From: Fibrobacter sp. UWEL
Lineage (GTDB): Bacteria > Fibrobacterota > Fibrobacteria > Fibrobacterales > Fibrobacteraceae
Length of the DNA stretch: 34,797 bases
Assembly (NCBI RefSeq): GCF_900142535.1
Contig: NZ_FRBE01000026.1
Span: 1-34,797, forward strand
Reading direction: 5' to 3'
Part shown: positions 11,310 through 32,015 of the stretch, piece after piece
Position numbering within the stretch: position 1 is the first letter of the stretch
Layout of the letters: every line of letters begins with the position of its first letter
Program-made: the position numbers and the translations under genes
Notes under the pieces: generated by a model
Database searches by the model: none
Told to the model about the DNA's origin: nothing
Seen by the model: only the letters and a program-made list of their open reading frames with translations

Positions 11310-11315
11310 TAAATT
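11310..11315 (+). promoter_or_regulatory. -10-like TAAATT 7 nt before menG
   Basis: TAAATT ends exactly 7 nt before the ATG at 11323, with no Shine-Dalgarno between (GTACCCC). The upstream terminator shows that a new transcript must start in this 45-nt gap, so a leaderless mRNA is the simplest reading. Confidence 0.5.
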
Positions 11316-11322
11316 GTACCCC

Positions 11323-12063
11323 ATGAGCTCAAAGAAGAAAGATCCCAATGAAAAAAGTTATGTTCGTGCCATGTTCGACGAAATTTCCGGACGGTACGAC
11401 TTCCTGAATCATTCTCTGAGCTGTTTTCAGGATATTCTCTGGCGTAGGGCCTGCTGTAAGGAATTGAAAAAGCAGAAGCCCGGCAAACGCCTGCTGGACC
11501 TGTGTGGTGGCACTGGTGACTTTGCGGTGACCTACGAAAAGTTTAACGGTGCTCAGGACGTGGCGATTCTGGGGGACTTTTCCTTCGGGATGCTGAAGGG
11601 TGCGGAAGGCAAGAAAACTTCTGCGGTACCTGTCCAGCTGGATGCCATGAAAATGCCTTTCCAGGACAAGACTTTTGACGTGGTGCTGAATGGCTTTGGC
11701 ATGCGTAACGTGCCTAACGTAGAAGTTGCCCTGAAGGAATCCGCCCGCGTGCTGGACGATGGTGGCTACCTGCAGATTCTTGAATTTTTTGCCCCGCGAA
11801 ATGTATTCAACAAGTTTTTCTACAAGATTCTCGCTCCGCTGTTTATCCCCATTATGGGTGCGTTCTTTAGCAAGAAGGATGCGTACGAGTATCTTGTCAA
11901 TTCCGTCACTAACTTCTTGCCGGTAGCGGACTTTGTGGCCCTTGCGGAAAAGAACGGGATGGAACTGGTCCATGTGAAACCCTGCTTCTTTGGGGTAGCC
12001 TATCGTGTTCTCCTGAAGAAAAGTTCCGGTTCCCTGAATGGAACTGCGCCGGAGGCAAAGTGA
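11323..12063 (+). CDS. menG: Demethylmenaquinone/ubiquinone C-methyltransferase
   Basis: SAM-dependent methyltransferase (UbiE/MenG) that methylates the quinone ring in the last step of menaquinone synthesis. The protein has 246 residues from the ATG at 11323 (a TTG 9 nt earlier is also in frame). The family opening VRAMFDEISGRYDFLNHSLS is present near residue 15. SAM motif I is LLDLCGGTGDFAV (about 60-72), and the family signature GFGMRNVPNVEVALKESARVL follows near 128-148. A typical LEFFAP motif is present. It overlaps ubiX by 4 nt (GTGA), starting a three- or four-gene quinone operon. In a probably anaerobic organism the product is more likely menaquinone than ubiquinone. Confidence 0.93.
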   Translation: MSSKKKDPNEKSYVRAMFDEISGRYDFLNHSLSCFQDILWRRACCKELKKQKPGKRLLDLCGGTGDFAVTYEKFNGAQDVAILGDFSFGMLKGAEGKKTSAVPVQLDAMKMPFQDKTFDVVLNGFGMRNVPNVEVALKESARVLDDGGYLQILEFFAPRNVFNKFFYKILAPLFIPIMGAFFSKKDAYEYLVNSVTNFLPVADFVALAEKNGMELVHVKPCFFGVAYRVLLKKSSGSLNGTAPEAK

Positions 12064-14701: not shown

Positions 14702-15136
14702 CTATTTGTCCTTATTCAAGTCTTCCAGCATTTTCATGGCTTCTTCCGGGAAAATCAGGAAGTATTCCTTCTTGCGGTCTTCGAAAAGCTGGAGCAAGCG
14801 TTCCTGCTCGAACTGTTCGCGGTCGATGTTCTGCATGAAGAATTCATCACGGGCGAAGTCGCGGGTGGTCATGAGTTTCTTCATTTCTTCGGAAAGATCG
14901 ACCTGATCCCAGAGAATGTAGTAGGAACCGGTAAAGCCGTCGGAGAACACGTTCACGTCCAAGGTAACTGCGTTTGCCTTGGAGGAGTCCACCATCTTGA
15001 CGGTGGTTTCTCGCTTTTCGGGACGGAAGACGTCCACGTCCTTTGCCTGAAGGGGGGTGTCCTGGGCCATAGCCGAAGAGACCGCCATGAAGGCGGCTGC
15101 GATAAAGGGAATGACTCTGGATACCTCGTAACTCAT
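14702..15136 (-). CDS. Small exported protein, unknown function
   Basis: The protein has 144 residues from the ATG at 15136 (an in-frame TTG at 15145 is rejected because it lies on the -10 element). A Sec signal peptide of about 25 residues ends AMA-QD. The mature protein has a beta-rich first half (TLDVNVFSDGFTGSYYILWDQVDL) and an acidic helical tail (REQFEQERLLQLFEDRKKEY). I recognise no family. It is the first gene of a two-gene unit with birA. Confidence 0.75.
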   Translation of the reverse strand: MSYEVSRVIPFIAAAFMAVSSAMAQDTPLQAKDVDVFRPEKRETTVKMVDSSKANAVTLDVNVFSDGFTGSYYILWDQVDLSEEMKKLMTTRDFARDEFFMQNIDREQFEQERLLQLFEDRKKEYFLIFPEEAMKMLEDLNKDK

Positions 15137-15143
15137 GGATACC

Positions 15144-15149
15144 AATATA
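15144..15149 (-). promoter_or_regulatory. -10-like TATATT 7 nt before a start codon
   Basis: On the minus strand TATATT is followed by exactly 7 nt and the ATG at 15136. There is no Shine-Dalgarno in the gap (GGTATCC). Confidence 0.5.
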
Positions 15150-15225: not shown

Positions 15226-16233
15226 TTACAACGCTAGGGGCATCCAGGGTTTGACCACGTCCACCGATGTTAGTTTGTTCTGCTTGACGCGGCGGATGGC
15301 GGCGGCAGCGATCATAGCGCCGTTGTCAGTACTCAGGCTACGATCGGGAATGCAGAAGCGAATGCCGTGCTTGCCGCAGTAGTCCTGCAGGCGGGTGCGA
15401 AGCCAGGCGTTGGCGCTCACACCCCCACCCATGACCAAGGTCTTCATCTTGGTCAGTTTCAGGGCGTTGATGGTCTTGGTCACCAAGCTATCTACGATGG
15501 CGTCTTCCAGGGAGGCGCAGATGTCTCCCAGATTTGCCTGGATGTATTCGGGATCGTGAGTTTCCGTATAGCGGAGAACTGCGGTTTTCAATCCGCTGAA
15601 GGAAAATTCGCAATTGTCATGACCGCGGAGCGCACGGGGAAACTCCACAAACTTGCGGTTGCCATTGGCACCCAGACGGCTAATGGTGGCGCCTGCGGGA
15701 TACTTCAGGCCCAGCAGTTTGCCGCACTTGTCAAAAGCTTCGCCGGCGGCGTCATCACGGGTGCGTCCAATGCTTGTGTACTTGAAGCCCGGTTCTTCCA
15801 GAACCAGCTCCGTATGGCCGCCAGAGACGGTGAGGGTCAGGAAGGGCGGTTCAATGTCCGGATTGCTAAGCCAGGCGGCTGCAAGATGACCTTCCAGATG
15901 ATTCATTCCATAGGCGGGAATGTTCAGGTCGCGGGCGAGACCTTTTGCAAAACTTGCTCCTACGAGAAGCGGTCCCATAAGGCCCGGGCCAGTGGTGTAG
16001 GCGATGGCGTCGATGTCTTCCATCTTGATGCCCGCTTCCTTGACGGCAGCTTCTGCCACGGGCACAATCTTCTGCAGGTGTGCTCGTGCTGCGATTTCGG
16101 GAACCACACCGCCGTAGAGGGCGTGTTCGTCGATCTGGCTGTAAAGCGGGTTGGAAAGAACCTTGAGGGGTTCGTCCTGCAGGATCGCGCAGGCGGTTTC
16201 GTCACAGCTGGATTCAATACCAAGCCAAATCAT
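15226..16233 (-). CDS. tsaD: tRNA threonylcarbamoyltransferase TsaD
   Basis: Catalytic subunit that makes the N6-threonylcarbamoyl modification on A37 of ANN-decoding tRNAs, with TsaB and TsaE (neither is in this window). The protein has 335 residues, standard length. It opens IWLGIESSCDET. The metal-binding NHLEGH motif (His and His) is near residues 109-114, and TVSGGHTEL and VMGGGVSANAWLR of the ASKHA fold follow. The C-terminal SLSTDNGAMIA block with the metal-binding Asp is present. The start overlaps the ybbR stop by 4 nt (ATGA), so the two are co-translated. Confidence 0.96.
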   Translation of the reverse strand: MIWLGIESSCDETACAILQDEPLKVLSNPLYSQIDEHALYGGVVPEIAARAHLQKIVPVAEAAVKEAGIKMEDIDAIAYTTGPGLMGPLLVGASFAKGLARDLNIPAYGMNHLEGHLAAAWLSNPDIEPPFLTLTVSGGHTELVLEEPGFKYTSIGRTRDDAAGEAFDKCGKLLGLKYPAGATISRLGANGNRKFVEFPRALRGHDNCEFSFSGLKTAVLRYTETHDPEYIQANLGDICASLEDAIVDSLVTKTINALKLTKMKTLVMGGGVSANAWLRTRLQDYCGKHGIRFCIPDRSLSTDNGAMIAAAAIRRVKQNKLTSVDVVKPWMPLAL

Positions 16234-17261
16234 TGTGCGGCCTCCTCGACTGCTTCTGCTTTAGACTCCACCTTGACTTCCTTCTTCTTCAGGTAAACCT
16301 TGTCCGGGCGAACTTCAATAGCCTTGATGGACTTTTCACGATTGACGGAGGGAGGCAGAGTCAACTTGGTGGTGGGGGAAAGGCTGTCGGCGTCTTCGAT
16401 GGCGAAGCGGTTGAATTCCATAATCAGCTCGATGTGTTCCTTGGTGATGGAATCCAGAACTTGTTCACCGCCGGTGATTTCTACAGTGACGGTATCCGGA
16501 GAGAGGCTGTAGATGCTACGATCGTAGAAGCCGATGAGAGAGACGGGAACCTTCTCGAATGTCTTGGAACCCATCTTCTGGATGTTTACCGCAATCTTGA
16601 CGCTGGAATCGCTGGGGGATACAAAACTGGGGAAGGCGTCGAAATTCAGGGGGACTGTAAAGACCTTGCTTCCCTTGAGGGTATCGAAGGTCATGGAGTC
16701 CGTGGGAATGTCGATGATTCTTGCCAGCGCATTGCGAGCGCCAGAGACCTGGATTTCGTCCGGAGTAATCTTGGGATCGTCTGCCAGCAGGTAGCCTTGG
16801 GCTGCGTTAATGGCTGTGTTCGCCTTGACAGGAACGCTGCGGACAATGCGAGTGTCCAAATCCAGGTCAATGAAAAGCAGGCGGCTTTCGGGTTCAATGA
16901 ACTTGACGTTGGAAAAGCCCGGCGCAAAGAAATTCTTCTGGTCCAGGTGAATGCGGGTGGCGCCTAGTTCTGCTTTCTGCAGGTCTACCACCATGGTGGC
17001 GGCGCTGGCATTACCCTTGGTAATTTCGCGATGGAGACGGATCAAGTCCCAAGTCTTGCCTTCCACGGTAATGTGGATGGTGTGAGGAGGCTTGGAGGCA
17101 ATAGCCATTGTTTCGGGAAGCTTTACAAAGTTCAGCGGAACTTCCAGGACCAACTGATAATCCTGTCGTGAAATCACGATAAACCAGATTGCGATGCCAA
17201 AAAGCAGTGCCGTTATCTTTAATGCGATGTTTCCCATAGTCGTCTCGAAAAGAACTGCCAT
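16230..17261 (-). CDS. YbbR-like domain membrane-anchored protein
   Basis: The protein has 343 residues with one N-terminal membrane segment at about 13-30 (ITALLFGIAIWFIVI), followed by an extracytoplasmic region with at least three YbbR-like beta modules. Typical YbbR phrases are EVPLNFVKLPE, VRSVPVKAN and FEKVPVSLIG. In Firmicutes YbbR (CdaR) regulates the diadenylate cyclase CdaA, but no cdaA is adjacent here and the partner is instead tsaD. The first ATG (17261) is preferred over the ATG at 17237 because TATAAC lies exactly 7 nt upstream of it. The C-terminus is a Lys/Glu-rich tail. Confidence 0.85.
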   Translation of the reverse strand: MAVLFETTMGNIALKITALLFGIAIWFIVISRQDYQLVLEVPLNFVKLPETMAIASKPPHTIHITVEGKTWDLIRLHREITKGNASAATMVVDLQKAELGATRIHLDQKNFFAPGFSNVKFIEPESRLLFIDLDLDTRIVRSVPVKANTAINAAQGYLLADDPKITPDEIQVSGARNALARIIDIPTDSMTFDTLKGSKVFTVPLNFDAFPSFVSPSDSSVKIAVNIQKMGSKTFEKVPVSLIGFYDRSIYSLSPDTVTVEITGGEQVLDSITKEHIELIMEFNRFAIEDADSLSPTTKLTLPPSVNREKSIKAIEVRPDKVYLKKKEVKVESKAEAVEEAAQ

Positions 17262-17283
17262 AAATTTAGTTATAATTCGCTTT
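17262..17283. promoter_or_regulatory. Overlapping divergent -10 elements for ybbR and ftsX
   Basis: On the plus strand TATAAT (17271-17276) ends 7 nt before the ftsX GTG at 17284. On the minus strand TATAAC (17274-17269) ends 7 nt before the ybbR ATG at 17261. The two hexamers share four base pairs (TTATAA core). The 22-bp gap holds nothing else, so any leader would be about zero on both sides, and any -35 would lie inside the opposite gene. Confidence 0.6.
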
Positions 17284-18171
17284 GTGTTCGGACAACTAGG
17301 TTATTTAATATCGGAATCTTTCCGCGGAATGAGGCAACATCGTTCGGTGATTTTCCCGTCGTTGGTGACCATCTTCCTGTGTTCTTTACTTCTTGCTTCT
17401 TCCCTCACTGCTTTAGGGGCTGCCATGCGGCTTCTGGACGCCGAAAAGAACCTCTACACGGTGGAAGCGTTCTTGCCGGATGACGTGTCCATGGATTCCG
17501 TCAAGGTGATTCGTGAACGACTGGAACACCGCAAGTATGTGGACTCCGTCAGCTTCATTAGTGCGGATTCTGCCCTGAGGGATTTTAGAAGTCATTTCTC
17601 TGCGGAAATGCTGGAGTTGGTGGAAGGAAATCCCCTGCCGCCTTATTTCCGCATGACGGTGAAAGAAGAAAACCAGAACCCTGGGGACCTGGCGGGTCTT
17701 GTGAACGCCCTTTCCAGCGAAGACTATTTTGAAGAAGTTCAGGCTCCTGTGGAATGGGTGGAAAAAATTGCCGCCTGGAAGTTCAAGATGATCTTCTGGC
17801 CCATTTGCATTAGCGTGCTTCTCCTGATTACCCTTTCTTTGATTATCTGCAATTCCGTCCGACTTTCCCTTTTGTCCAGAAAGTTGCTGGTGGAGAATAT
17901 GAAATACGCTGGCGGCAGCTACTTCTTTATTGAGTTTCCCTTTGTGCTCCAGGGTGCTATCCAGGGATTTTTAGGAAGTGGTTTTGCTGTGGTCCTGCTT
18001 TTTGCCACCATCCGTTCCCTGACCCAGTCCCTGCCCATTATTAGCGTTTATGCCCAGGGCGTTGGCTTTGCCTTTGTGGCGGTCGTCTTGTTGGTCACCT
18101 TCCTTTCCGGATATTTCAGCTTCAGCACGGTGCGCAAGTTCCTGAAAGTCAAACGTAGTGAACAGGATTAA
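17284..18171 (+). CDS. ftsX: Cell division permease-like protein FtsX
   Basis: Membrane half of the FtsEX complex, which transmits ATP-driven motion to periplasmic EnvC-type activators of cell-wall amidases. The protein has 295 residues from the GTG at 17284, which removes the portion of the frame overlapping ybbR and gives the usual short cytoplasmic N-terminus. A first membrane segment (SLVTIFLCSLLLASSLTALG) is followed by an extracytoplasmic loop of about 120 residues and three further segments, then a basic tail. Directly downstream is an EnvC-like protein. The ATPase gene ftsE is not adjacent, which is unusual. Confidence 0.9.
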   Translation: MFGQLGYLISESFRGMRQHRSVIFPSLVTIFLCSLLLASSLTALGAAMRLLDAEKNLYTVEAFLPDDVSMDSVKVIRERLEHRKYVDSVSFISADSALRDFRSHFSAEMLELVEGNPLPPYFRMTVKEENQNPGDLAGLVNALSSEDYFEEVQAPVEWVEKIAAWKFKMIFWPICISVLLLITLSLIICNSVRLSLLSRKLLVENMKYAGGSYFFIEFPFVLQGAIQGFLGSGFAVVLLFATIRSLTQSLPIISVYAQGVGFAFVAVVLLVTFLSGYFSFSTVRKFLKVKRSEQD

Positions 18172-23520: not shown

Positions 23521-23940
23521 ATGAAAAAGAATTTCTCCCTTCTATCGGTTCTTGTTTTCGCCTTTATGGCATTGGTTCTGCTTGCCCAGCCCAAGGTTTA
23601 CGCCTACGACGGGGACATGGACGTCTATCGCGAATTCAAGGAAGACCTGGCTCTTGCCCGAGATACCTACATCAGCTCTCTGAACATGGCCATGGATGAG
23701 AAGGAAGTGAGTAACCCTTCCTGGAACGACATCGACTTTGAAGCACCGGACATGAAGTACTGTACTTTAAAGGAAATCCCCGGGGGATTCAAGATCAAGG
23801 GTTCCCATGGCGCTTATAAGCTGGAAGCAGACGTGAAGTTTGTTCCTGGCCGTGAGGATATGCGATACCAGGTAAAGCATTCCAAGGGCAGCAACGGCCC
23901 TGGCAAGGACATCGCCGGCGAAGTGTTTAGGGACAAGTAA
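23521..23940 (+). CDS. Small secreted protein, unknown function
   Basis: The protein has 139 residues. A signal peptide of about 28 residues (MKKNFSLLSVLVFAFMALVLLA, cleavage near VYA-YD) is followed by a soluble domain with PSWNDIDFEAPDMKYCTLKEIPGGFKI motifs and a single Cys. I recognise no family. It is monocistronic, divergent from tRNA-Leu, and followed by a short AT-rich gap before a converging gene. Confidence 0.7.
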   Translation: MKKNFSLLSVLVFAFMALVLLAQPKVYAYDGDMDVYREFKEDLALARDTYISSLNMAMDEKEVSNPSWNDIDFEAPDMKYCTLKEIPGGFKIKGSHGAYKLEADVKFVPGREDMRYQVKHSKGSNGPGKDIAGEVFRDK

Positions 23941-31343: not shown

Positions 31344-31370
31344 GTCATTCTAGAGCGAAGCGAAAGAATC
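31344..31370. repeat. Interspersed repeat, copy 3, forming a gene 3' end
   Basis: In the orientation opposite to copies 1 and 2: GTCATTCTAGAGCG to GAAAGAATC. One extra T relative to the other copies creates CTAGA, which supplies the TAG stop of the hydrolase gene; the final residues SFASL are encoded by the repeat. Confidence 0.7.
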
Positions 31371-32015
31371 CCGTTCGTCTTCGATGGTGGTGGTAGGTCC
31401 ATGTCCAGGCAGTACGATGGTTTCCGCAGGAAGCGTCAGCAGTTTTTTCTTGATTCCGCTAATGAGTGCTTCTTCGTCACCGCCAAACAAGTCCGAACGT
31501 CCCATGGAACCAGCGAACAGAATGTCGCCGGAGAATAGCAGGCCTGGATTCTTCACCCCAGCGATGGTCTCGTCGGATGCGGGCAGGTAGAATGCAACGC
31601 CCCCAGGGGAATGTCCTGCCACATGAATGACTTGCAATTCGATGCCCTCGACGCCAACGGTGTCCCCTTCCGCGATGTAATCGCCCAGCGGGGGCGCCGC
31701 TTCCTCAAAAGGCAATCCGTACATGGAACTCTGTTCTTCCTGCAGGTCCAACAGAAATTCGTCTTCCTGGTGTGCTTCTGCTTTCACCCCGTAGGTGTGT
31801 TCCACAAAGGCGTTTCCCAGCACATGATCCAGGTGCAGGTGCGTGTTCAGCAAGTGACGTACCGTTAGGTGGTTGTCCTTGATGTAGGTGGCTAAAGCGT
31901 CGCGTTCCCGCTGGTTGCTTACGCTGGGATCAATGAGAATTGCGTCGCCCTTGTCATTACTCAGGACGAAACAGTTTACGCCGAAGGAGTTAAAGGCAAA
32001 GTGTTTGAAAAGCAT
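31350..32015 (-). CDS. Metallo-beta-lactamase fold hydrolase (glyoxalase II-like)
   Basis: Cytosolic binuclear-metal hydrolase of the thioesterase-like MBL group. The protein has 221 residues, typical of YcbL/glyoxalase II-like short forms. The metal motif THLHLDH is near residues 58-64, GHSPGG near 134-139, LFSGDILFAGSMGRSD near 160-175, and VLPGHGP near 198-204, so all metal ligands are present. The substrate is unknown. The ATG at 32015 has TATATT 6 nt upstream. The C-terminus (RDSFASL and stop) is contributed by an interspersed repeat. It is the first gene of the unit with the acyltransferase. Confidence 0.9.
   Translation of the reverse strand: MLFKHFAFNSFGVNCFVLSNDKGDAILIDPSVSNQRERDALATYIKDNHLTVRHLLNTHLHLDHVLGNAFVEHTYGVKAEAHQEDEFLLDLQEEQSSMYGLPFEEAAPPLGDYIAEGDTVGVEGIELQVIHVAGHSPGGVAFYLPASDETIAGVKNPGLLFSGDILFAGSMGRSDLFGGDEEALISGIKKKLLTLPAETIVLPGHGPTTTIEDERDSFASL

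Follow-up and report, generated by a model that had tools for sequence, protein, structure and literature searches.

The window (the whole stretch of 34,797 nucleotides analysed here) corresponds to a single contig from a 3.5-Mb genome of Fibrobacter, a genus of gut bacteria that degrade cellulose. In this window, ftsX on the plus strand and ybbR on the minus strand are divergent and separated by a short gap (Table 1). The plus-strand series continues with an EnvC-like M23 peptidase gene, holB, and recJ, and ybbR is followed by tsaD; our searches bore out all of these gene names, which the initial annotation had given from the sequence. The identity of ftsX is based on the FtsX_ECD domain (E = 1.1e-12) and on the FtsX_Gneg model (E = 9.9e-43, but under the cut-off of that model). 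Genes ftsE and ftsX are generally adjacent in bacteria. Here, the best match to ftsE was found on another contig (G000:C2:317139-317804), and the ftsX operon appears to have a promoter of its own.

Table 1. Features at the ybbR/ftsX locus.
Feature	Position	Strand	Description
ftsX	17284..18171	+	GTG start; first gene of ftsX - EnvC-like M23 peptidase - holB - recJ
ybbR	16230..17237	-	ATG start at 17237, kept in relatives; YbbR Pfam E = 8.6e-12
tsaD	15226..16233	-	Downstream of ybbR with 4-bp overlap; TsaD E = 9e-91
ftsX -10, TATAAT	17271..17276	+	7 nt upstream of GTG; transcription predicted to begin at its G, ±1 nt
Candidate ybbR -10, TAAATT	17263..17268	-	AATTTA on the plus strand; transcription predicted from about 17256, an A, with a leader of ~19 nt
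ybbR -10 of the initial annotation, TATAAC	17269..17274	-	Overlaps ftsX -10 via palindromic TATA; less likely -10
Predicted ybbR leader	17238..17256	-	Weak G-rich Shine-Dalgarno-like stretch
ybbR start of the initial annotation, ATG	17259..17261	-	Present only in the window species (L002) and its closest relative (L003)

The initial annotation had started ybbR at the ATG at 17261, which leaves 22 bp before the ftsX GTG at 17284 (...ATAAATTTAGTTATAATTCGCTTTGTG), and had pointed out a TATAAT for ftsX and a TATAAC for ybbR that overlap at 17271-17274. On re-reading the sequence, we found these letters and distances to be correct, including the four common base pairs and the 7 nt between each hexamer and its named codon. 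The ATG at 17261 was ruled out as the start of ybbR because the codon is found in only two species, and YbbR homology in relatives starts at the ATG at 17237 (MGN/MKH/MNN conserved). With the latter start, ybbR and ftsX are in fact 46 bp apart (range across the genus, 42-46 bp), and the ybbR message would not be leaderless from 17261 and has a predicted leader of ~19-24 nt. FtsX homology in relatives starts at the GTG at 17284 (identity 63-100% within the genus); a longer ftsX ORF from the ATG at 17194, which crosses ybbR, was ruled out on this basis. Conservation of the gap had been proposed as a check, and the divergent layout with a short gap is indeed kept among relatives.

On the ftsX side, a TATWWT hexamer ends 6 nt (25 sequences) or 7 nt (27 sequences) before the start codon in 52 of 52 divergent relatives. 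These are distinct sequences from Fibrobacter and sister genera in which ybbR is divergent and near, with FtsX identities of 48-100%; shared ancestry accounts for part of the conservation within the genus. The ftsX start codon is GTG in 51 of them and ATG in one. Among family members with ybbR elsewhere, a -10-like hexamer was found 6-8 nt before ftsX in L060, L064, L069, L071, L073, and L076, and none was found at this distance in L070, L072, L074, L075, L077, and L079. In most class-level relatives outside the family, a -10-like hexamer stands 12-15 nt ahead of the ftsX ATG, corresponding to a very short leader. Anti-Shine-Dalgarno pairing was not found before the ftsX GTG (+0.8 kcal/mol; median +0.8 in relatives and -3.2 at random positions).

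The same spacing recurs in the rest of the genome. In an 835-kb sample with 590 called genes, including 243 that are first in a presumed unit according to our own simple gene calls, 31 first-in-unit genes have a TAWWWT that ends 6-8 nt upstream of the start, compared with 7.3 ± 2.7 in dinucleotide shuffles, and the distribution has a sharp peak at 6-7 nt. For genes within units, the corresponding count is 6 of 210. When the first ATG is taken as the start, the final base of TAWWWN at 6-7 nt is T in 31 cases, A in one, C in one, and G in two; TAWWWC is not enriched at starts (1 vs 31 TAWWWT). In a second genus (G017), TAWWWT at 6-7 nt was found 12 times against a background of 3.6. Genes with such a start-proximal -10 are a minority; their excess corresponds to about 10% of the first-in-unit genes in this genome. 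The sequence, its conservation, the spacing, and this genome-wide class are direct observations, and the genome-wide peak and the 52 relatives establish that the spacing of the predicted -10 before the ftsX start is not due to chance. Four other genes in the window (31350-32015 and 14702-15145 on the minus strand, 11314-12063 and 23521-23940 on the plus strand) are also candidate leaderless genes, as TAWWWT stands 6-7 nt before a start codon.

Based on the -10 spacing and the absence of Shine-Dalgarno pairing, the ftsX message is probably leaderless. The initial annotation had considered both messages leaderless, which agrees with our results for ftsX and fails for ybbR, as the ATG at 17261 is not conserved. 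Leaderless genes with a start-adjacent -10 have been described (PMC3160421; for Deinococcus-Thermus, PMC12340547), and ftsX resembles them in having TANNNT ~12 bp upstream (counted from the first T), no Shine-Dalgarno sequence, and a weak or missing -35. Two criteria of this class, a TANNNT ending 6-7 nt before the start and a lack of upstream Shine-Dalgarno pairing, describe ftsX. The main text of neither survey mentions Fibrobacter, and a literature search for Fibrobacter succinogenes together with transcription start site gave no match.

On the ybbR side, comparison among relatives indicates that TAAATT is more likely to be the -10 than TATAAC, which the initial annotation had chosen. TAAATT or TATTTT is found in a fixed register in 47 of the 52 divergent relatives, with a 1-bp shift in L038 and a TATTTT 10 bp further in four sequences of genus g10. 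The AATTTA columns are unchanged across a 10-species alignment. Furthermore, the reverse TAAATT/TATTTT is missing from that register in relatives without ybbR within 100 bp, except for L041, in which the contig ends before ybbR. At the TATAAC position, the hexamer ends in T in 13 of the 52 relatives, has lost its first base in four, and reads TATAGC in one. Its register is broken in L005, L030, L031, L038, and L056, and TAAATT is kept in all five. Since the final T is nearly obligatory among the start-proximal -10s of this genome (31 T to 1 C), TAAATT is the better candidate. With TAAATT taken as the ybbR -10, the two -10s lie next to each other with 2 bp between them and are not interlocked, and TATAAC is possibly the AT-rich upstream portion of the ybbR promoter. 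The ybbR leader of just 3-5 nt that TAWWTT would leave in the four g10 relatives and in g6/g11 counts against this choice. The ybbR anti-Shine-Dalgarno duplex, at -3.0 kcal/mol in the window and with a median of -3.7 among relatives, is weak evidence, as the median of random positions is -3.2 kcal/mol. In three g10 relatives (L057, L058, and L063), the reverse block TATAACTATTTT is displaced away from the ftsX -10 by 10 bp, roughly a turn of the helix, and a second TATAAC still overlaps the ftsX -10.

The best of the alternatives, which we nevertheless regard as unlikely, is a bidirectional promoter with interlocked -10s, in which TATAAT would serve ftsX and TATAAC would serve ybbR, with starts ~21 bp apart and a ybbR leader of ~24 nt. 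Consistent with this arrangement, TATAAY is found in 47 of the 52 divergent relatives (TATAAT in 13), the nucleotide preceding the ftsX -10 is T with ybbR adjacent and C in several relatives without it (L060, L064, and L069), and the predicted start spacing falls inside the 7-25 bp that defines bidirectional promoters (PMC10268837). A -35-like TTGTCC (minus strand, 17295-17290) also mildly favors TATAAC, being 15 bp from it and 21 bp from TAAATT. This element lies in the conserved ftsX codons GGA CAA, in which codon use is unusually uniform (GGA in 43 of 45, CAA in 42 of 45), but its spacing is not fixed, as it varies by species from 14 to 15 bp for TATAAC/TATAAT and from 20 to 21 bp for TAAATT. 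However, TATAAC lacks the -7T, and TAWWWC shows no enrichment at starts. The loss of the register in the five relatives that retain TAAATT argues further against this arrangement. The four common base pairs amount to TATA, which is its own complement and occurs in every TATAAT, and most of the match is therefore to be expected from the ftsX -10 itself; because any TATAAT shows TATANN on the opposite strand, the interlock requires no special explanation. Nor is tight packing in itself unusual, as close opposed TAWWWT pairs in the divergent gaps of the 835-kb sample are at chance level (14 of 30 vs 12.3 ± 2.5 in shuffles). A generic sigma-70 scan with a required -35 did not report the ybbR/ftsX site, since neither direction has a recognizable -35 at normal spacing. 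The initial annotation had placed the -35 contacts inside the opposite genes. Any such contacts would lie beyond the 22 bp, in ftsX codons on one side and in the ybbR leader on the other.

Both operons hold genes that are expected to be necessary in growing cells. Simultaneous binding of two polymerases at this site very likely cannot occur, as the initial annotation had argued on steric grounds; for bidirectional promoters of Escherichia coli, steric constraints are likewise stated to bar simultaneous binding (PMC12825309). From this point, the initial annotation had derived mutually exclusive expression of the two operons, which we did not find convincing. In E. coli, all five bidirectional promoters tested had basal activities too low for the two sides to compete, although one-sided activation can repress the opposite side (PMC12825309). 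Exclusive expression is thus unsupported even though exclusive binding is likely, given the low basal competition in E. coli and the lack of a -35 or regulator site that would argue for strong one-sided activity; the presence of growth-needed genes in both operons also speaks against it. We consider it improbable that, at a hybrid bidirectional promoter kept in Fibrobacteraceae with a leaderless division arm and a leadered ybbR-tsaD arm, polymerase competition sets the ratio or noise of the two operons, such that the pairing itself is under selection. Less probable still is a mutually exclusive switch, in which polymerase on one side would silence the other operon and couple cell division to tsaD/t6A synthesis. 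Steric exclusion is expected at such spacing and has been reported in E. coli, as has repression of one side by activation of the other (PMC12825309), but those five promoters showed little competition at basal activity, and at our site no regulator site was found and the -35s are poor. Moreover, genus g5 has ybbR elsewhere (downstream of another gene), and several g5 species keep the ftsX promoter, which argues that ftsX expression is independent of the pairing. Equally remote is an AT-rich gap with no promoter function and true promoters deeper in the neighboring genes, which would fit the absent -35 match and the silent sigma-70 scan but not the strict 6-7 nt spacing in 52 sequences at 48-100% FtsX identity or its retention where ybbR is absent.

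Taken together, the locus is likely to comprise two opposed constitutive promoters in a compact, conserved arrangement, with a leaderless ftsX message and a predicted short leader for ybbR-tsaD. Two sigma-70-type housekeeping promoters would be squeezed together in the gap. Rightward, TATAAT would place the ftsX transcription start on the G of its GTG, and the ftsX-envC-holB-recJ message would be translated via the leaderless route. Leftward, TAAATT, with its upstream end 2 bp from the ftsX -10, would produce the ybbR-tsaD message with a leader of ~19 nt. At any moment, polymerase could be loaded in only one of the two orientations, such that the two arms alternate at ordinary activity and both operons are constitutive. 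Here, we infer promoter use, the exact starts, and leaderless translation from the sequence.

The site is a compact case of known promoter types and not a new on/off switch. It resembles the bacterial bidirectional promoters described by Warman, Grainger, and colleagues (PMC12825309; PMC10268837) in its opposed -10s that admit one polymerase, its divergent genes, and its conserved AT-rich symmetric core. Those promoters are defined by divergent starts 7-25 bp apart (PMC10268837). With TAAATT, the -10s abut without shared bases and the predicted starts are ~27 bp apart, just outside this range, whereas with TATAAC the TATA is shared and the predicted distance of ~21 bp is inside it. The locus offers a clean, conserved test case that joins bidirectional promoters and leaderless translation beyond the usual model bacteria. 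In addition, approximately one in ten first-in-unit Fibrobacter genes seemingly begin at the promoter, which bears on start-codon annotation and on expression tools.

Two further patterns were observed near gene starts. The first 14 codons of ftsX (17284-17328), including GGA CAA and TTA ATA TCG GAA TCT, have unusually uniform synonymous usage across the genus (modal codon fraction of 0.77, compared with 0.60 in the rest of the gene), and this uniformity could result from ybbR promoter contacts or from leaderless initiation. Also, TAWWWT shows a secondary excess at 23-26 nt upstream of starts (18 cases against 9.4 ± 2.9 in this genome, L081-L100 and L130-L149; also in G017, L170-L189), which suggests a common leader of ~18 nt.
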